In this document: piece by piece, positions 9,938 to 54,192 of the stretch | Layout of the letters: each line of letters starts with the position of its first letter | Numbering within the stretch: position 1 is the first letter of the stretch | Source: Diphasiastrum complanatum | Taxonomy: Eukaryota; Streptophyta; Lycopodiopsida; Lycopodiales; Lycopodiaceae | Direction of reading: 5' to 3' | Assembly: GCA_029204225.1 (NCBI GenBank) | Contig: CM055107.1 | Location: forward strand, 8,735,472 to 8,799,471 | Length of the DNA stretch: 64,000 nucleotides | Notes under the pieces: generated by a model | What the model was told of the DNA's origin: nothing | The model's input: the letters and a program-made list of their open reading frames with translations, nothing else | The model's database searches: none | Made by a program: the position numbers and the translations under genes

Positions 9938-10647
9938 TTATTTCCAAAAATCATCGATGTCATTTACATCTTTTTCTTTTGCTTTTTCTTGAGTAGCCAC
10001 TATATTATCAAGCGGCACCTCTTCTACAATTTCCTCGACTACAGTTACTACATTGTAATCTTGAACCAAGACATCAGTAAATTCTCCTGTGTCGTTTACT
10101 TTTTCGCTAGCAGAAGGCTGAGGTTCCTTGGACAAGGGAATTATTATATACTCGTTGTCCAAACTCTTTCCCACTTTAGATAATTCATCTGGCAAAATTG
10201 AAAGAGATTTCATTCTCATTTTTATAAAATCAACTAAATTAGTATTTAAATCTACTGCAGCAACATGTCTGCCTTTCTGAACAGCACATGCGCTCGTAGT
10301 GCCGCTACCGTTAAATAAATATAAAACCTAATCAGCTGGGTGAGAAAAAATATCAATTAAATGATTAATTAATTGTTGTGGCTTTTGGTAGGGACAAGTC
10401 GGCGATGAAGAGTATATAAGATCTTTTTCTTAAAAATTTTAAAATTTTTCTACAATCACCCTCCTCAACAGAGTAAAAGCACGGTTGATCATCGACACTT
10501 TTGGGAAGGTAGGTCTCTAATGGATCTTCTTCCGCAATGGTCTCACCCCATGTCAATCTCTCCTTGTCCCTTTTTTTCTGCTTTTGCCTTCAGAATATGT
10601 TTCTTGAATTGCTTTGGAAGGGCTTTGTTTTTTTTGTCTTCGGGAGA
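9938..10647 (-). pseudogene. N4/N6 DNA methyltransferase-like coding region
   Basis: Exon 2 starts at 10647 after a strong acceptor (polypyrimidine then CAG, 10650-10648). It reads a Lys-rich linker, EDKKNKALPKQFKKHILKA. At an A7 run (10577-10571) the frame shifts into RLTWGETIAEEDPLETYLPK, then YSVEEGDCRKILKFL, which resembles the EGDCxxxL segment preceding the catalytic motif of beta-class N4/N6 methyltransferases. Later come QKPQQLINHLIDIFSHPAD, a TAG (10330-10328), VLYLFNGSGTTSACAVQKGR and VAAVDLNTN. QKP, the LFxGSGTT SAM-binding motif I and the following acidic position are the hallmark order of pfam N6_N4_Mtase. The DPPY region reads ADLSLP or, in another frame, CPY and abuts QKP, so the target-recognition part seems deleted. 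An acidic tail ends in DIDDFWK. Such enzymes methylate adenine N6 or cytosine N4; this copy is inactive. Confidence 0.75.
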
Positions 10648-10828: not shown

Positions 10829-11140
10829 CATGTCTCTAAACAAAATAAAAAAATCAAAGAATTTGACTTGGAGGTCCTCATAGGCAATATGGAGGGCTTT
10901 CAGGGTTGTTATGTTCCAGCGAACATCATGTGAGAGGGACCTTGTTACCAGTCTCACAGACCTGTAGAAAGGAGCACCATGAATCTAAAAATTCGTGGTC
11001 CTCTGAAGTCTCCTGATATCCCTTAACCATGGTCTTCTGGGCCGACCTACTCTCCTACCAGTGCCCACTGCCCATTGTAGAGGAGGGCGAGGAGGCGGGG
11101 CAAATGTGGTAAGGCGGGCTGTCTGCTTGGTACGGGCCAT
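10829..11140 (-). pseudogene. Histone H3-like exon with canonical tail tip
   Basis: From ATG at 11140 the minus strand reads MARTKQTAR, the exact N-terminus of histone H3 including Lys4. A divergent Pro/Arg-rich linker follows (residues 10-36). The core then aligns to H3: WLRDIRRLQRTT (alpha-N), PFYRSVRLVTRSL (alpha-1, cf. PFxRLVREI), DVRWNITTLKALHIAYEDL (alpha-2, cf. DxRFxxxAxxALQEAAExxL) and KFFDF. DVRW and the shape of alpha-2 are closer to CENH3-type than canonical H3. Codon 52 (10987-10985) is TAG; the frame is otherwise open to the donor at 10828. The loop 2/alpha-3 part is not clearly conserved, although SPED at the start of the next exon may match the MPKD of H3. It could be a histone mimic fused to the methyltransferase, or a separate H3-derived gene. 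Confidence 0.75.
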
Positions 11141-11985
11141 TGCAAGGTAGGGTATCAATATGACGCGCCAACGAGCAGAAAAAGCAGATATTCGACAGGG
11201 GAGACGCGTGATGGCGATATGAGCGATGGCGTATCAATATGATGCGTGGGCGGGCCAGCTGTATTGGTATGTGGGTCCTTTGGCGCGTGATAGCGATATG
11301 CGTCTAACGGGGAGCGGAAGTGAATAAAGGAAACTAAGGAGAGCCAGAGAACGAAGAATTAAGAAACTGAAATAAGACCCGAAAATGTCCTTTTATACTT
11401 GCAGAACGTCCCATCATATTCGCATGTTCGATGTGACACCTCCACTCCCCGCACATGTGGTCACACATGTGGTCACACGCACCCGTCACGTGTCAGGATA
11501 TCAGCGGTTCGTACGATCAGACGGCTGACATGCACGTGCGAGGACATGTGGCGACATCAAGACCACACACGTGTCAGAAGACAACTGGGGCGTACGATAG
11601 TACAGTTGGCATTCACGTGCGAGGACGTGTGTCAGGATCTGAAGTGTACACGTGTCATTCATAATGATTTTGCCGTCGTTTCCACACGTGTGGCAATTTT
11701 GACCGCACGTTACAAGACACGTGTACGGTTCAGATGCTCTGTATTAGACTATATATATGAGTGTCATTTCTGTAATTCAGTTTCGCATATTGAGTCCATT
11801 TAACCGACCCGCTCCAAATTTGTTTGTACAATATCGCTACCACGCACCAAGCAAAGACATCCATAGTTGCACTGATTCCCTAGCGCGTGGTTCCGATATT
11901 CGAATTCGCGTACAATGCATATCGCCATCACGCACCCACGCTTACCTCATTTATGTCCCCTTGCTAACTGGCGCGTCATATCGAT
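11141..11985. promoter_or_regulatory. Divergent promoter with mirrored motif arms
   Basis: The leftward gene has TATAAAAGG (plus 11389-11397, read on minus) about 250 nt upstream of its ATG. The rightward gene has TATATATA (11750-11757) about 230 nt upstream of its ATG. Between each TATA box and its ATG lie copies of a shared motif, (A/G)CGCGTGATRGCGATATG and relatives. On the left they are at about 11153-11170, 11203-11221, 11235-11250 and 11280-11302. On the right they run in inverse orientation at about 11831-11849, 11883-11900, 11918-11941 and 11970-11989. The copy nearest each ATG is TATYRATATGACGCGCCA. The arrangement is symmetrical about the centre, as expected for a shared bidirectional promoter. 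Confidence 0.65.
11488..11665. repeat. 81-bp tandem repeat with ACGTG elements
   Basis: Units start with ACGTGTCA at 11488, 11569 and 11650, exactly 81 bp apart; the third is partial. Each full unit has an internal CACGTGCGAGGAC (11533 and 11614) and a CGTACGAT. The array lies between the two opposed TATA boxes and resembles an enhancer or upstream activating region. Confidence 0.85.
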
Positions 11986-13125
11986 ATGGCCTCCTCGTCT
12001 GCTAGTTTGACCTATGATAAAACTCTTAGTTCTTTCCTAGCTGATGCTGAGGTTAGCGATAGATAGGCCCATTTTTTGTCCTATTTCGATTTTCAGTTTG
12101 ACATAGAGAGATTTGTTATTGAGCATAGGGAAATTTTTCCTAAACTGTACAAGGATTTTTATGAGTGCTTGCAACAGGGTACCCTTCTGATGGATGGCCT
12201 GAGATTTGTGCATTTCACAGATTTGGCTCATGCTCAGCCAAGTGCCAAGCAAAGGCATGATCGTAAGTTTATCAAACTTATCGATCTGTTTAAACGTGTC
12301 ATACCCTTTGAGGAACACAATCGAGTATGTCGCTTCGTTCAGGAGGATATGGCCTTCGTGTTTTTCTTATCTGCTCTTATCTCTGATGAGGTTGAATCTT
12401 CTAGGTTGTCCATGATTGGTTTGCCTGCCCCTACCACTCGTGTGGATTCAAAGGTTTTCATTACTGATGAGATTTTAGGAGATGTAGAGGAGGCCAGGCA
12501 AGCAGAACAATATGATCCTGCCAAGGCTTGTTCTTTGTCTATCTCTCCGTTATCTACCGCGAGCAAGATTGACCAGAGCAGAACCCTGATGGAACTTCAT
12601 GTGTACCATATGGACGATGTTGCATTCTTATCCATTAGCGACATCGGAGACGTAATGGATCTCGGAGAAGATGAGATATTATCTCTTATGTCAAGGATGA
12701 TTTCTGAATTTAAAGATTTTATTGACTTTGATGATGACGACCTCATAGATGGCATCGACTATGAGGACCAGGTAGAATGGGCAAGTGGCACAGATGCCCT
12801 TCAAAGGATGCTATCTAAGAGCAGGGCATATGAGGCTAATATGCCCAGTGAAGAGGAGTTTTTGGCTTTTCAGAAAAAGTATCCGCCACCTTACACATAT
12901 ACTATTCCAGTTGACCAGCAATCCACCATTATTGCTGGTCACAATTTAGATGCTGCTGATATGATCCAAGCTGACGAGGAGGATTTGGTAAGTACACATT
13001 CTCACGAAAATCATTTATTATTTAACGTGTAATTGATGATTGATCTATTAGTTTGACTAACACTTGATTATGTGTTGTAGGATATCATTGAAGTTGATGC
13101 CTTTGCTAGCAGACATGGAGGATAG
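11986..13125 (+). pseudogene. Acidic protein of unknown function, divergent partner
   Basis: ATG at 11986 begins MASSSASLTYDKTLSSFLAD. TAG at 12064-12066 (codon 27) interrupts, and the same frame then runs open to 12987. There GTAAGT starts an intron ending in TTGTAG at 13080, and exon 2 adds DIIEVDAFASRHGG and a stop at 13125. Without the TAG the product is about 348 residues. The first part is probably helical (FVIEHREIFPKLYKDFYECL). The middle is very acidic (DFIDFDDDDLIDGIDYEDQ), and the end has FQKKYPPPYTY. No membrane segment, zinc finger or known enzyme motif is visible. Both genes of the pair begin ATGGCC next to the shared promoter motif, which suggests linked regulation. I do not recognise the family. 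Confidence 0.6.
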
Positions 13126-14794
13126 AGAGAGAGAGAGAGACAAGGCAGGAGACAGAAGGATGCCTCGTTGGCTCATTATTTGAAACATATTTTAAATAAC
13201 AAAATTTGTGTTCTTCATGAAAGGTTTTTTGTGAATGCGAGAACTTTAATCATGGCCATCAAGGCCCTATCTTATTTTTCCCAAGGGCATAAATACCCAA
13301 ACAAAATACATATAGAATCATTTTTGTCAAAAGAGATGTTGCTCTTAAAGTGTCTATTACGTGCCAGAAAATGTTCCTATGAGATTCTCTACTCTGGCAA
13401 TTCTATTTGGATATATAGATTTGAGCAAAAGGTGATCCACTCGATTTTTGAATCCATATGATAGGAAAAAGTTCCTTCATGACCACACAACAAAAACGGT
13501 CCTTAGAGACAATGAAAAAAAATGATTGTACTCTTTTTCATTTAATGTATGTGAAATTTGAGAATTTTTTATCACACGTGTTTGATCTTTATTGAATGTC
13601 ATCAATCTAATTTTGGCTTATAAATTTACATGCTTTTTTGAATCTTTGATATTCAGTTGATCATGTTGTATATCGAACTTGAGCTCGTCTGTAAGACCAT
13701 TGGAATAGCTGAATGATGTAACTATTTTTTGAGGATGCATTTCTTTACAGTCTCCTGACTGTTTTGAGCACATTCATTATCATAAACACTTGGTTCACTT
13801 GCTTCAAGGCTGTACAAATTTCGACGAAGTACAGAATATCCATCAATAGTCACAAGTTTAAAACACTCATACTTACACTTAACACCTTAACCCATCCCTC
13901 TATACATATCCTTTCTCAGAACCATAGCAATATTGTGAGCTCAAAATCCTCTATCAGAAAATAACTTGGAACTTCAAAAAATAAATCATAACTCAACAAC
14001 TCAGGTCAGCAACATCATGTTCTTACTTACTTCCCTTAGTCCTCTCTCTAATAGACTCTTCTACATAAGCATATTAAGGTACTCAGAGACTCTCTTAGTT
14101 ATCGTTCACATAACATCACAAGCTGAAACAACTCAGGTCCATCAGCAATTGAGTTAGATGCAGGCTCAGCATCATAACCCATCACCACAGCAAAGTAGCA
14201 GAATATCAGAGCTAATTCTCCATAACATAAGCTCAAAATTCAAGATGATAGCAGCATAGTAGTAAATTAGCAACTCAGCAAAACCACCTATGAGTAGCAC
14301 TCTTCACTCTTCTAAGTTTTTTCTTTTTGTTCAACGTTTTGGGCCTTCTTATAGATGGTGGTGGTGGAAGACCACCCTTCACCTTGCCATGTTTTCACTT
14401 TTCAGGTATTTTTCTCCTTTTCAACATGTGGAAAATTTGGTGGAGCCCATCACATCAGCCACTTGCAAGAATATTTTTCTAGAACTTTCTCATTCCAAGA
14501 TGATATAGACACTTTGCTTCTCCTTTTGACATGTGGCAAGGGTGAGATGTCACTCAATGTGATGTCACTAAAAAAAAACTTTTAACATATTAAGCTTTAA
14601 CCTTAACATTTACAAGGGCCAATAACTTTTCGTTAAATGGTTTAGCCCGGTCGGCCTCTTTGATATTTGTCTTGTCGACTTTTCCCTGCAACTACAGTTT
14701 CAATACCGTAAATTGTTATTTTTCTCTTAGTGTATTTAAGTACATGTTTTTCACTTGTTGATGGAAAATCTAAATGTGCAAAATTGAACAATTC
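13126..14794. other. Intergenic DNA without recognised gene
   Basis: A short GA run (13125-13140) is followed by AT-rich sequence. An ORF at 13168-13461 has no start-context support or known domain. Nothing else was recognised before the copia B terminal region. Confidence 0.5.
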
Positions 14795-22590: not shown

Positions 22591-24510
22591 TTGGAAACAA
22601 GGAAGAAGGAAGATGCTAGTGCATGCAAAGAGATCATGGTTGGATACTCATCCACCAAGAAGGCCTATAGAGTCTTTATACTCTCTACTTCTCAAGCTAT
22701 AAAAAGTAGAGATGTTGTCTTTCATGAAGATGAACACTCATCTTTTGAAGAGGCCGAGATCAAGAAGTCTATGGATGCATCACCAATTATTGATTTTGAA
22801 GACAATCATGATGTGATGGGGTCGAGATTTGAAGAAGACTCTCCTCATATTTTCTCACCAAGAAGATCCATGAGAGATAGATCCGAGCCTAAGAGGCTCT
22901 CATATGTTGACAAAGGCAAACAAGTGGATCTTGATTCCACTAATTATGTTTTTTATGTCTCTCATGAAGAGCCAAAGAATGTACAAGAGGCACTCAATAC
23001 CAAGGAGTGGTATGATGCCATGAAGCAAGAGTATGATGCATTGATCACCAACAATACTTGGGAGCTTGTGGATCCTCCATCCAACAAGCATGTGATTGGT
23101 TGCAAGTGGGTATTTCGGATCAAGTTCAATCATGATGGCACCATCAACAAGTATAAAACAAGATTATGTGCCAAAGGATTTGCTCAAATCCATGGCCTTG
23201 ATTATGAGGAGACCTTTGCACCCGTTGCAAAGATGGTGACAATAATAATTCTTATTTCTCTTGCTTGTTTCTTTAAGTGGAAGGTGTTCCAATTAGATGT
23301 ATCCAATGCTTTTCTAAATGGTTATCTTGAGGAGGAGATCTATATGGAACAACCTCAAGGATTCATCAAGGATGAGTCCAAAGTGTGCTTGCTCTTCAAA
23401 AGTCTTTATGGACTCAATCAAGCACCAAGATCATGGTATTCAAGACTTAATTATTTTCTTATCTCACTAGGATTTACTTTTAGTGACTATGATCCTTCCA
23501 TGTATCTAAAGTTTGTTGATAGCAATATTGTCATTCTTCTAATTTATGCTGATGACGTTATTCTTTGTGGAAGTTGTATCAAGCTAGTTGATGAAACTAA
23601 GCTAGCACTTGGATGTGAGTTTAAAATGCAAGATCTAGGAGAGATACATTACATCCTAGGCCTAGAAATTGATTTTTACGAAAATCATGTCTTTATATGC
23701 CAATCTAGATATGCTCACTCTATGTTGAAAAAATTTCATATGGAAAATTCTAAGAGCATAGATACTCCAATGGAGCAAATTGTAAAAGATCCTAATAAAG
23801 GTGATGAAAGATCCTTTGAGGACATCACACTTTTTAGGAGTCTTGTAGGCTCCTTGATTTGGCTTACAATTACTAGGCCCGATCTAAGTTTTTGTGTGCA
23901 CAAATTGAGTCAATTTATGAAAGATCCTAAGATCCATCATTGGAAGATGGCCAAGAGGATTCTAAGATATGTATCTTCATCTTGTGATTATGGTCTACTT
24001 TATAAAAGTGAAGATCTATCCATTGTTGGCTACTCGGATTCGGACTTTGCAGGTGACAAGATGGATCGAAAGTCTATTAGTGGATACACTTTCTTTCTTG
24101 GAGGCAACCTAATATCTTGGCTTTCCAAAAAGCAAGATACTATATCTCTCTCTTCATGTGAGGCTGAGTACAAAGCACTCACTACAACTACCAAAGAGGT
24201 GCTTTGGATCAAGAGGTTATTAATGGAGCTAAAGTGCATCAAGGAAGATGATCTACCAATGATCCAGTGTGATAACATCTCGGCCCAAGCTCTTGCCAAT
24301 AATCCCATATTTCATACAAGAAGCAAGCACATAGAAGTGGCACACCATTTTGTGAGAGAAAAACTTATTGGAGGAGAAATCTATTTGGAGCATGTCAACT
24401 CGTCCTCTTGTATTGCCGATCTACTCACCAAGCCTTTGAGCAAAAGTGCTTTCATCAAGCATAGATCTAATCTTGGAGTTATATCAAGATCAATGCTTAT
24501 ATCTTCATAG
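22591..24510 (+). CDS. Copia D integrase C-end, RT and RNase H, open frame
   Basis: 639 open codons cover the integrase C-terminal part (GYSSTKKAYRVF), an acidic linker, RT (GCKWVFRIKFNHDGTINKYK, AKGFAQIHGLDYEETFAPV, FQLDVSNAFLNGYLEEE, SLYGLNQAPRSWY, the catalytic box YADD, LGLEIDFYENHVF) and RNase H (YSDSDFAGDKMDRKSISGY, SLSSCEAEYKAL, TRSKHIEVAHHFVREK, ADLLTKPLS). Catalytic residues of RT and RNase H look intact. The ATG at 22591 is only the first Met after a stop; in the living element this is the C-terminal part of one gag-pol polyprotein. The upstream stops make the copy non-autonomous. Confidence 0.9.
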   Translation: METRKKEDASACKEIMVGYSSTKKAYRVFILSTSQAIKSRDVVFHEDEHSSFEEAEIKKSMDASPIIDFEDNHDVMGSRFEEDSPHIFSPRRSMRDRSEPKRLSYVDKGKQVDLDSTNYVFYVSHEEPKNVQEALNTKEWYDAMKQEYDALITNNTWELVDPPSNKHVIGCKWVFRIKFNHDGTINKYKTRLCAKGFAQIHGLDYEETFAPVAKMVTIIILISLACFFKWKVFQLDVSNAFLNGYLEEEIYMEQPQGFIKDESKVCLLFKSLYGLNQAPRSWYSRLNYFLISLGFTFSDYDPSMYLKFVDSNIVILLIYADDVILCGSCIKLVDETKLALGCEFKMQDLGEIHYILGLEIDFYENHVFICQSRYAHSMLKKFHMENSKSIDTPMEQIVKDPNKGDERSFEDITLFRSLVGSLIWLTITRPDLSFCVHKLSQFMKDPKIHHWKMAKRILRYVSSSCDYGLLYKSEDLSIVGYSDSDFAGDKMDRKSISGYTFFLGGNLISWLSKKQDTISLSSCEAEYKALTTTTKEVLWIKRLLMELKCIKEDDLPMIQCDNISAQALANNPIFHTRSKHIEVAHHFVREKLIGGEIYLEHVNSSSCIADLLTKPLSKSAFIKHRSNLGVISRSMLISS

Positions 24511-40414: not shown

Positions 40415-42769
40415 ATGGCAACCTCAATTGGAGTCATGTTGGAAGCCAATGATAGGCTTACCTCAAGTAACTATTCATTATGGAAAGTGAGGATGAAGTC
40501 ACTTCTTGAGATGAATGATGTTTTGGATATTGTTGTAGGTTTGGAGGAGAGACCAGCAACACAACAACATCAATTGAGGTATGACAAGAGGGCCAAGAAG
40601 GCTCTACACATGATAAAGATGAATGTTACCAATGAACTTCTCAAGGAAGTTGGTAAGTGCACATCATCTTTGGAAGCTTGGAATTCATTGAAGAAGCTTT
40701 ATGAATCCAAGTCTACTTCTAGAGTGTTGACTCTAAGAAGGCAAATCTTTTCTTGTTTGCAAAAGAATGAAGAAAGTCCAAGTACTTTTGTTTTGAAAAT
40801 GAAAGCATTGAATGATGAGTTAGCTTCCATAGATGAAAGCATTAAGGAAGGAGAGCTTATTCAAGTGATTCTTAATGGCTTGTTGGATGCTCATGCTAAC
40901 ATTGTTCAAAGTATTGCTATTCAAAAGACTTTGCCAAGTTTGATGGATCTTCAAGAGATCTTGATCAATGAGAAATATAGGCTTCAAGCAAGAGGTGGAT
41001 CTACATCGACACTTCAAGAGGATGATATGTTCACAAAGGGCAAATTCAAGGAAAAAACCAAAAGCAAGTGGTCTAAAGGGCAAGATCAAGTGGATGCTTC
41101 TTTAAGTGGCAAAAAGAAGGATAGATCAAAGCTCAAGTGCTTCTATTGTGACATCAAAGGACACTTTGCAAGTGAGTTCTACAAGAAGAAGAGAGATCAA
41201 GGAGAGAAGCAAGGTAATCTTACTCTTGATGAGGATGGTTTGGATGTGCAAGATGCAAATGATGATGCTTTTGTGATGTCTTTATGTATGCTTGCTAATG
41301 ATGGAGATCTAGATCCTTGGTGGATTGATAGTGGAGCAAGTTCACACATGACCTTTCACAAAGAGTACTTCACTTCTTTGTTGGCATATGGAGATGACAA
41401 GAGGGTGATCTACACGGCCAATGATGGTGAGTGTGCAATCAAAGGGATTGGCACAATTCCAATTTCTCTCTCTACAAATAGGAATGTTTATTTGGAGAAT
41501 GTCTTGTTTATTCCATCTATTACCAAGAATTTGCTTAGTGTGAGTCAAATGCTAAGTAAGGGCCTCAAGGTGGAGTTTGATGAAGATGCTTGTTTGATCA
41601 AAAGGAAGGATGTCTTGATTGGAAAAGGTAAAAGGCAAGGAAAGTTGTTCAAACTTGATGCTTGTGTTATTGCTAACCAAGTTGGATGTGTTGCAAGGGA
41701 GCAAATTTCTATTCAAGAGGTTTGGCACAAAAGGATGGGACACCTCAACTTCAAGTCATTGGAGGTAATGGCAAGGAAGAAGGTTGTGATTGGTCTTCCA
41801 AGTTCCTTAAGTAATGACAAGCATGTTTGTGAGTCTTGTGCTTTGTCTAAGTCACATAGACTACCTTATACTAGATCTATTTCTAGATCTACAAAGCCTT
41901 TTAAACTTGTACATTCGGATATTCATGGATTTACTACAATTAGCAACAGTGGAGCTAAGATGTATGTAGCATTCATTGATGATTTTAGTAGATTTTATTG
42001 GATCTATCTACTAAAGAGCAAGGATGAAGTGTATGATGTCTTTGTCAAGTTCAAGAATTCAAGGGAGAACCAATTTTCCACAAAGATCAAGTGCTTGAGA
42101 GGTGACAATGGTGGTGAGTACATATCTAACAAGTTCAAGGCCTTTTGTAATGAGCATGGGATCAAGAGGGAGTATACAACATCAAGGACCCCACAACAAA
42201 ATGGAGAGGCTGAAAGGAAGAATAGGACTTTATGTGAAAGTGCTAAATCTATGAGGTTAAGTGCTAATCTTGACAAACCATTTTGGGATCAAGCTTTGTT
42301 GTGTGCCAATTTCTTGTGCAATAGGTGGCCGAGTGCTATTTTGGATGGAAGGACACCTTTTGAGATGCTATTCAAGAGGAGGCCGAGTGTCAACTTTCTA
42401 AGAACCTTTGGATGCACATGCTATGTCAACATTACTCTTGATGATAGGACCAAGGAGGATCCATCTTCAAGAAGAGGTATTTTTGTTGGATATAGTGAGG
42501 TGAGTAAAGCCTACAAGGTTTACATTCCTTCTACTAACAAAGTGATTGTTGGTAGAGATGTCATTTTTTATGAGGGAAACATTCCAAAGGTGTCTTCAAG
42601 CATGATTGATGGTAAAGTAGATGGATCTAACATTCTTGATGTTGATGAGAAGGATCCTACTTTGGATGGTGGTGATGATGGACCTTCATCAAGTCAAAAG
42701 CCAAGGAGAACATCAAGAAAAAGACAAGTACCTTCAAGGCTCACATATGATCAAAAGGTAAGCAAGTAG
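40415..42769 (+). CDS. Copia C gag-protease-integrase polyprotein
   Basis: 784 open codons. Gag starts MATSIGVMLEANDRLTSSNY, SLWKVRMKSLLEMNDVLDIV and continues through the capsid. The zinc knuckle CFYCDIKGHFASEF has Phe for the last Cys. The protease site is WWIDSGASSHMT (intact). Integrase has HKRMGHLNF..CESCALSKSH, LVHSDIHGF, CLRGDNGGEYIS and QQNGEAERKNRT, a complete D,D,E set, then the C-terminal region GYSEVSKAYKVYIPS. It ends at TAG 42767 after a one-base deletion near 42755; the next frame continues GKQVVSGNYVAF. Integrase and protease may still be functional, but nucleic-acid binding by gag is doubtful. Confidence 0.93.
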   Translation: MATSIGVMLEANDRLTSSNYSLWKVRMKSLLEMNDVLDIVVGLEERPATQQHQLRYDKRAKKALHMIKMNVTNELLKEVGKCTSSLEAWNSLKKLYESKSTSRVLTLRRQIFSCLQKNEESPSTFVLKMKALNDELASIDESIKEGELIQVILNGLLDAHANIVQSIAIQKTLPSLMDLQEILINEKYRLQARGGSTSTLQEDDMFTKGKFKEKTKSKWSKGQDQVDASLSGKKKDRSKLKCFYCDIKGHFASEFYKKKRDQGEKQGNLTLDEDGLDVQDANDDAFVMSLCMLANDGDLDPWWIDSGASSHMTFHKEYFTSLLAYGDDKRVIYTANDGECAIKGIGTIPISLSTNRNVYLENVLFIPSITKNLLSVSQMLSKGLKVEFDEDACLIKRKDVLIGKGKRQGKLFKLDACVIANQVGCVAREQISIQEVWHKRMGHLNFKSLEVMARKKVVIGLPSSLSNDKHVCESCALSKSHRLPYTRSISRSTKPFKLVHSDIHGFTTISNSGAKMYVAFIDDFSRFYWIYLLKSKDEVYDVFVKFKNSRENQFSTKIKCLRGDNGGEYISNKFKAFCNEHGIKREYTTSRTPQQNGEAERKNRTLCESAKSMRLSANLDKPFWDQALLCANFLCNRWPSAILDGRTPFEMLFKRRPSVNFLRTFGCTCYVNITLDDRTKEDPSSRRGIFVGYSEVSKAYKVYIPSTNKVIVGRDVIFYEGNIPKVSSSMIDGKVDGSNILDVDEKDPTLDGGDDGPSSSQKPRRTSRKRQVPSRLTYDQKVSK

Positions 42770-53796: not shown

Positions 53797-54192
53797 TTGG
53801 CAAAACATGCAATTGGCCTACTAACTGTGATCCTAGCATTTCTTGTGGTATCGCATCTTTCTGCCTTGGGCGCTGAAGCTGACACAAGCAACATCTGGTG
53901 CAGCCCCATAATACTAAAACCTGGTGATCATCGCGCTCAAAACATTAAGGTGGTTACTATTAAAATCATACATAAGACGTTACCCAAGAAAGGCCCATAC
54001 AAATGTAGCTACGCGGTCAAAGGATCAAGGCGTATTTACGGACGCGGAAACTGCCACACTCTAGATTGTACTTCCTGCCTCAATGATCTATGGAACTTGT
54101 CATTTGCCTCTTGCGGCCACATATACAGAGCTGGGGGCCGAGGGATACTAGATGGCAAGTGCGATATACGTTTTGAGAGTTACAAGTTCTGA
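53797..54192 (+). CDS. Ginkbilobin/DUF26-type secreted protein, start codon altered
   Basis: 131 open codons. A hydrophobic signal peptide (AIGLLTVILAFLVVSHLSAL, cut likely after GAEA) precedes a mature domain of about 105 residues. Its C-terminal half, YGRGNCHTLDCTSCLNDLWN then FASCG, LDGKCDIRFESYKF, matches DUF26 (Gnk2, CRK ectodomains, PDLPs). Those proteins act outside the cell; Gnk2 binds mannose and is antifungal. The usual C-X8-C-X2-C reads C-X4-C-X2-C, and there is an extra Cys in YKCSY. The frame opens with TTG at 53797, two codons after an in-frame TAA (53791); no ATG is in frame before the signal peptide. Either the ATG mutated to TTG or an upstream exon supplies the start. Confidence 0.7.
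   Translation: MAKHAIGLLTVILAFLVVSHLSALGAEADTSNIWCSPIILKPGDHRAQNIKVVTIKIIHKTLPKKGPYKCSYAVKGSRRIYGRGNCHTLDCTSCLNDLWNLSFASCGHIYRAGGRGILDGKCDIRFESYKF

Follow-up and report, generated by a model that had tools for sequence, protein, structure and literature searches.

Here we describe a mobile DNA element that encodes a divergent histone H3, starting from one copy in the lycopod Diphasiastrum complanatum. The copy lies in a stretch of 64,000 nucleotides (GenBank assembly GCA_029204225.1, contig CM055107.1, positions 8,735,472 to 8,799,471, forward strand), here called the window, and positions are counted from its first letter. It is a dead copy, truncated on both sides, of a multi-gene DNA element. 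Among its relatives in the same genome the H3 fold is under purifying selection, and the tail, where intact, keeps residues 1-8 of H3 and has another residue in place of lysine 9 (K9).

The H3-like fragment and its surroundings

The H3-like coding fragment occupies 10854..11140 on the minus strand and comprises codons 1-96, that is, the MARTKQTAR tail, a linker and the helices as far as alpha2, as judged by translation, Pfam and structure matches. An initial annotation of the locus had described a 104-codon translation (10829..11140) with an exact H3 tail tip, a linker unlike H3 and a fold region keeping the H3 pattern. When re-read, the translation does open with MARTKQTAR at 11140, the linker (28 residues) is not that of H3, and the pattern LRDIRRLQRTT..APFYRSVR..DVRW..ALHIAYED is present on the minus strand. 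The reported length fared less well: codons 1-96 are H3-like, but because of an in-frame TAG at codon 52 (10985..10987, minus strand), which had been missed, the 104 codons are not a single open frame, and the 3' end had been overrun. Codon 96 ends at 10853, the DNA similarity to the family begins at 10854, and codons 97-104 (10829-10852) are unrelated, non-histone flank. The similarity starts at 10854 in all 20 fetched loci that reach past this edge, corresponding to 19 distinct copies (L028 and L041 being one locus); in L039 it starts at 10871 because the fetched stretch stops there. The fragment is 84% identical to residues 1-96 of a 364-residue copy in L041, and the third helix (alpha3) is absent. 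The window copy is inactivated, by the stop codon and by the loss of this helix.

The assignment to H3 is supported by a profile search (Pfam Histone, E=7.1e-8; bit score 33.2, cut-off 26.4). The solved structures include 166 sequences matching at E<=1; the best 60 are all H3 or H3 variants, the top one at 4e-9, with alignments spanning residues 1-96. Taken together, the Pfam E-value and the structure matches place the similarity far beyond chance. A search of 5.8 billion proteins gave six candidates, none significant, and the collection therefore seems to be poor in canonical H3. A single-sequence fold prediction of the fragment was poor (pLDDT 54.5) and is excluded from the evidence.

Upstream of the H3-like gene there is a 5' leader (11153..11299, minus strand), followed by a putative TATA-like box (TATAAAAG, 11390..11397, minus strand), read by eye. 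The space between this gene and its divergent neighbour, ORF2, has a palindromic, ACACGTGT-rich centre (11634..11738), recognized by sequence comparison. A second putative TATA-like box (11750..11759, plus strand, also read by eye) precedes the ORF2 leader (11831..11986, plus strand), and sequence comparison shows the two leaders to be inverted copies of one another (62% over 157 columns).

ORF2 exon 1 (11986..12987, plus strand) starts with an ATG at 11986, contains one in-frame TAG at 12064-12066 and is open to 12987. An intron with the borders GTAAGT...TTGTAG follows (12988..13080), similarity resuming at 13081 with the remains of exon 2 (13081..13456, plus strand); the frame there is broken, and its pieces are 73% and 88% identical to the copy in L042. 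At the DNA level window positions 12229-13737 match L042:2240-774, where the transposase match extends to 901. The end of the window copy, at approximately 13610..13737 (minus strand), thus probably represents, by DNA match, the 3' part of the L042 transposase gene; no protein match was found in this part of the window itself. ORF2 has no Pfam family over the cut-off and no NCBIfam match, and only two matches to solved structures, at E 0.26-0.3. A relative, 88% identical, is found on a 1.3-kb contig of the source 'lgn', which we take to be Logan, and there, too, the frame runs unspliced into the intron. Scans for Rfam families and tRNAs across the 64-kb window found nothing.

A dispersed element with five genes

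The genome (1.74 Gb, 5,176 contigs) contains at least 150 H3-like copies, the best of 4,914 first-look candidates. They are 72-89% identical to the window fragment, itself excluded, and among the matches listed they occur on every one of contigs C1-C23. The view of a divergent H3 with a tail tip under selection holds. The fragment is no lone gene: it is a member of a large mobile-element family, and full-length relatives with an H3 fold were found in the same genome. The initial annotation was also right in setting it apart from an ordinary H3 pseudogene. We considered a decayed host H3 and rejected it; the canonical host genes read ARTKQTARKSTGG, and the closest relatives of the window copy are in the dispersed family. 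At L038 371-4362 one host H3 gene of this kind, containing introns, has a remnant of the family transposase within about 3 kb.

An ORF2 search gave 129 matches from 8,597 candidates. Co-location was counted over 122 of these, the last seven, partial pieces, being omitted. Among the matches listed, at least 57 of the 122 have an H3 match within 3 kb, and the others may adjoin H3 copies beyond those listed. All 57 pairs, the window pair included, are divergent, with a median gap of 933 bases. Window DNA from 10854 to 13737 is mostly 84-95% identical to the family copies.

Eighteen query pieces were mapped against the window, two 20-kb stretches and 28 further loci, 31 sequences in all. Two subfamilies, A (to which the window copy belongs) and B, have five genes in common: H3, ORF2 in two exons, ORF3, a small BAH-like protein and a transposase-like protein, TP. 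Four of the five are present in L033, a locus of subfamily C, where no ORF2 was seen. The BAH resemblance was noticed by eye and has no Pfam support. Gene order is the same in A and B, with H3 and ORF2 individually flipped: BAH+ ORF3+ H3+ ORF2- TP- in B, and BAH+ ORF3+ H3- ORF2+ TP- in A. The latter is pieced together from C6, C14 and L033 since C6 is rearranged and C14 was fetched short of TP. One family B copy measures 8,799 bp end to end. In several B copies a long CT microsatellite stands just ahead of the BAH-like gene (e.g. L032 865-1152). Helitron Rep/helicase-like frames, recognized by eye, adjoin the family A copy at L042 3519-5874 and are probably a separate insertion.

In a fold model the relatives of TP show the RAG1/Transib transposase fold. 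In the model the aspartates of KLDE and WHLxGDLKTLK fall on beta1 and after beta4. A candidate glutamate (GMEKSH), which may be the counterpart of the RAG1 catalytic glutamate, belongs to the following exon and lies beyond the modelled part. By sequence, TP has no match among solved structures, and five relatives scanned have no Pfam family over the cut-off. The RAG-fold transposase family (P0002-P0118) is common in environmental contigs and is also found in the fern Ceratopteris richardii.

The ends of the element are seen in family B. The terminal inverted repeats (TIRs), TTAGGGCCCTTTTTGGACTCAAAAAGGGCCTCTTC, match at 31/32 and 32/32 bases in two copies that were aligned from end to end, and a third copy also shows both ends. 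At L031, L043/L030 and L046/L035 the repeats start with TTAGGG, finish with CCCTAA and contain an inner palindrome, with CA and TG favoured in the flanks.

These ends and the transposase-fold protein argue against an endogenous DNA virus, which we regard as an improbable alternative. Viruses are known to carry histones, and the five genes, the leaders shared by H3 and ORF2 and the gene flips between subfamilies do resemble viral gene sets. However, no capsid or polymerase gene was noticed among the reading frames of the 8.8-kb element, where the profile search was against Pfam only. Pattern matches in IMG/VR (47 for TP, three for ORF2 and four for H3, from few peptide patterns) include none that was confirmed.

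Subfamilies, selection and the H3 tail

The H3 of family A is up to 364 residues long, with tail, linker, a three-helix fold ending in KRVTLMPQDMHLVMRLR and a C-terminal extension. That of family B reaches 412 residues; its tail tip is identical, its linker is long and rich in SR and proline, and the fold is C-terminal. By sequence the full-length relatives contain the complete three-helix fold with an RVT(I/L)(M/L)P end, and the copy in L029 matches Pfam Histone at E=6.8e-29 (101 bits). A further 16 loci added families D (MARTKQTARLTSF..) and E (one copy, MARTKQTACPKS..), more members of C, one of B and one unassigned locus (L070). The fold is 42% identical to host H3 in A, 53% in B, 54% in C, 48% in D and 52% in E.

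The initial annotation had offered a fast-evolving CENH3-like protein as one explanation. As a general account, with a variant steering the element or a host chromosome region to centromeres, we find this improbable. Comparisons with plant CENH3 do point to a common fast-evolving H3 fold with an unlike tail and linker; TTNLLIP..APF and VRW resemble it, and the element folds are 48-54% identical to Arabidopsis CENH3. Of the two references, family A resembles CENH3 more (48%) and host H3 less, while B resembles host H3 more (53%, with 48% for CENH3) and C both equally (54%). The L1 loop has the length of H3 in A, B and E, is one residue longer in C and is clearly longer in D. Unlike plant CENH3, the element H3 is multi-copy and mobile and carries an exact ARTKQTAR tip, including the canonical Q5-T6 of H3. 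The spread of the listed copies over all of contigs C1-C23 also speaks against a centromeric variant. A weakly supported fold tree groups A, D and E (98/96), places B on the side of host H3 and CENH3 and has no supported grouping of element H3s with CENH3; a topology uniting all the element H3s is not rejected (p-AU 0.417). Host CENH3 was not recovered, as the best 150 matches listed look like canonical or element H3. In family D (L068-L080 except L070, L072 and L074) the lengthened loop reads MTTHLPY, a feature shared with CENH3.

Selection was assessed from the ratio of nonsynonymous to synonymous differences (pN/pS). For family A, 40 reads were available (39 fetched and the window), of which 27 stop-free, colinear ones were used and 13 dropped; 20 of the 40 had been picked beforehand for showing no stop, and some are near-duplicates. 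Over 351 pairs, which are not independent because of these near-duplicates, the pooled ratio is 0.29 in alpha1-alpha2 and 0.20 in the alpha3 region, compared with 0.93 and 0.92 in wrong-frame controls. In family B (seven copies) the fold gives 0.40 and the control 1.79, and two copies of family C give 0.30 and 0.67. Purifying selection acts on the H3 fold, and ratios far below the control frames indicate that H3 has been a working gene of the element.

The same figures bear on the possibility that a host H3 was captured and copied as a passenger without a role, as may hold in the fungal hAT elements of Pyrenophora and Pseudocercospora that provide a precedent (PMC3538342, PMC6710886, as far as their excerpted text goes). 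Many family copies have stops, as a passenger would predict. However, the family A fold is constrained relative to its control frames, the gene occurs in several divergent subfamilies, and exact tails of different subfamilies differ by synonymous changes only. We consider a passenger very improbable.

The tail is best compared between subfamilies. An exact MARTKQTAR is found in 6 of 40 family A reads, where positions R2 and R8 (H3 numbering) are often C or H; transitions exceed transversions 1.94-fold in pairwise comparison (first 405 bases, 36 copies). Exact tails occur in 3/5 B, 5/9 D and 0/1 E copies, counts that exclude one false family B pattern match (L035) and one B locus without a match (L034). 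The exact tails are encoded by GCC CGT ACC AAG CAG ACA GCC CGC in A, GCA CGG ACG AAA CAA ACG GCT AGA in B and GCT CGG ACG AAG CAA ACC GCT AGG in D. All eight codons differ between A and B and seven of eight between A and D, with zero residue changes; a nonsynonymous value of 1.0 for A against B comes from averaging mutation paths at one arginine codon, the residues being identical. Compared between subfamilies, residues 1-8 of the tail show purifying selection.

The fate of the two lysines differs. K4 is a lysine in 38/39 family A reads, while the K9 position is L in 37/39 and K in none. The K9 position is D in family B, L in D and P in the one E copy; it is replaced in all four subfamilies with a tail read (A, B, D and E). 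The canonical ARTKQTARKS tail with its K9 was not encountered, the copies with intact tails keeping residues 1-8 and replacing K9. Further, the ARKS context of K27 was not seen in linkers read by eye.

A possible role in chromatin

The H3s of this family suggest that the elements may alter chromatin to escape silencing. The reading that we prefer, and to which we give about an even chance, is that the window holds a truncated copy of an element whose H3 enters chromatin with K4 kept and K9 lost and weakens silencing, marks DNA, or both. The element H3 would pair with host H4 and enter chromatin, perhaps on the element itself. It would offer K4 and a free N-terminus to K4 methylases and readers, and would be open neither to K9 methylation nor to K27 methylation in the usual ARKS context. 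Silencing of the element might then be weakened, and/or its DNA marked for its own transposase complex. An element silenced through H3K9me2 and DNA methylation would profit from an H3 that keeps K4 and lacks K9, because nucleosomes containing it could not be marked at K9 and could still be methylated at K4. The RAG-like transposase beside the H3 gene is suggestive since PHD fingers of the RAG2 type bind H3 tails methylated at K4 (PMC7204232, in the excerpted text). A wider version, in which an old lineage of plant RAG-type transposons maintains its own nucleosomal H3, shaped by selection to retain the K4 tip and shed K9, and uses it to build K4-able, K9-proof chromatin that both evades silencing and serves as a landing mark for the transposase, we regard as unlikely; if true, it would be a self-contained counterpart of the link between RAG2 and H3K4me in vertebrate immunity.

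The tail mimic of the initial annotation is a possible function. Here the protein would be a soluble decoy or docking peptide whose ARTKQTAR tip binds or titrates H3K4 readers, erasers or the element's BAH-like reader, with no need to enter nucleosomes. The identity of residues 1-8 in intact-tail A, B and D copies despite unlike linkers agrees with this, as do the RAG-like relatives of TP, given the PHD binding just described. However, the fold is the best conserved part in family A, and a pure decoy would not need alpha1-alpha3; the BAH-like reader, too, is a resemblance that Pfam does not support. As the full-length relatives keep the whole fold, an H3 variant built into nucleosomes fits no less well, and we consider a decoy rather unlikely, though the least so of the rival explanations.

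Several results weigh against a nucleosomal H3 of a mobile, RAG-type element, in addition to the non-independence of the family A pairs. The family A tail alone is weakly constrained (pN/pS 0.77) and the linker unconstrained (1.05). In family D (nine copies) the fold ratio of 0.38 is uninformative because the control frame is nearly as low (0.45). The TP exon shows no sign of constraint in four family B copies (1.08), where TP may act in trans or degenerate once inserted. The E tail is from one copy, and the N-terminus of family C is outside the tail set. TIRs were found in family B only, and none at the one family A edge examined (two copies). Finally, RAG and Transib elements create 5-bp target-site duplications (PMC7204232), and no duplication was seen in any of the three element copies with both ends.

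The element also differs from RAG/ProtoRAG and Transib, as the excerpted text of the same source describes them, in that its TIR starts with (CA)TTAGGGCC and not CACT.., in that it encodes H3 itself, and in that the frames scanned gave no RAG2-like kelch or PHD match.

H3 genes on transposons as such are known from Pyrenophora and Pseudocercospora hAT elements. In Pyrenophora tritici-repentis a hAT transposon carries an H3-like gene, with 26 near-identical H3L genes that match neither H3 nor CenH3 and have insertions in the tail (PMC3538342; Manning 2013). In Pseudocercospora fijiensis a hAT element has spread H3 to hundreds of RIP-inactivated copies (PMC6710886; Dhillon 2019). As these two sources present them in excerpt, the Dothideomycete elements are, like ours, TIR-bounded DNA transposons with an H3-like gene and another ORF, multiplied genome-wide. 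Ours differs in the RAG/Transib fold of the TP relatives, in its plant host, in candidates numbering thousands, and in its several divergent subfamilies with fold and tail tip under purifying selection. Arabidopsis VANDAL elements, as the excerpted text of PMC10398659 describes them, offer another likeness, a plant transposon encoding an anti-silencing protein (the role proposed for the element H3); however, VANC is a sequence-specific anti-silencing protein and not a histone. In the literature searched we found no H3-bearing transposon in plants, none with a RAG/Transib-fold transposase, none with several H3 subfamilies, and none with selection on fold and tail together with loss of K9. To that extent a plant RAG-type element with a selected, K9-less H3 is new.

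Histones are among the slowest-evolving proteins. A selected, mobile H3 with residues 1-8 kept, its linker rewritten and K9 discarded is a natural experiment that can tell which residues of the tail are needed by a selfish chromatin protein, and it makes testable the idea that transposons beat H3K9-based silencing by supplying their own histone. The RAG1/Transib-fold transposase beside it also bears on a long-standing question, why RAG-type recombinases and the H3K4 tail are linked.

Some further features of the window lie outside the element. On the minus strand at 9941-10327 a frame with FNGSGTTSACAVQKGRHVAAVDLN has a weak N6/N4 DNA methylase motif (Pfam E=0.008, below the cut-off); its best match to solved structures is no better than E 0.58, and it is absent from the compared H3-family loci. 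A continuation of the H3 frame into the methylase-like frames at 9941-10640 (minus strand) was considered and rejected, as no compared family locus shares that DNA. At 53797-54192 (plus strand) a cysteine-bearing frame with a signal-like start weakly matches the stress-antifungal (Gnk2-type) family (E=0.044, below the cut-off). Long open Ty1/copia-like frames, recognized by eye, are found at 40415-42769 and 22591-24510 (plus strand), and copia- and gypsy-like remains crowd the window.
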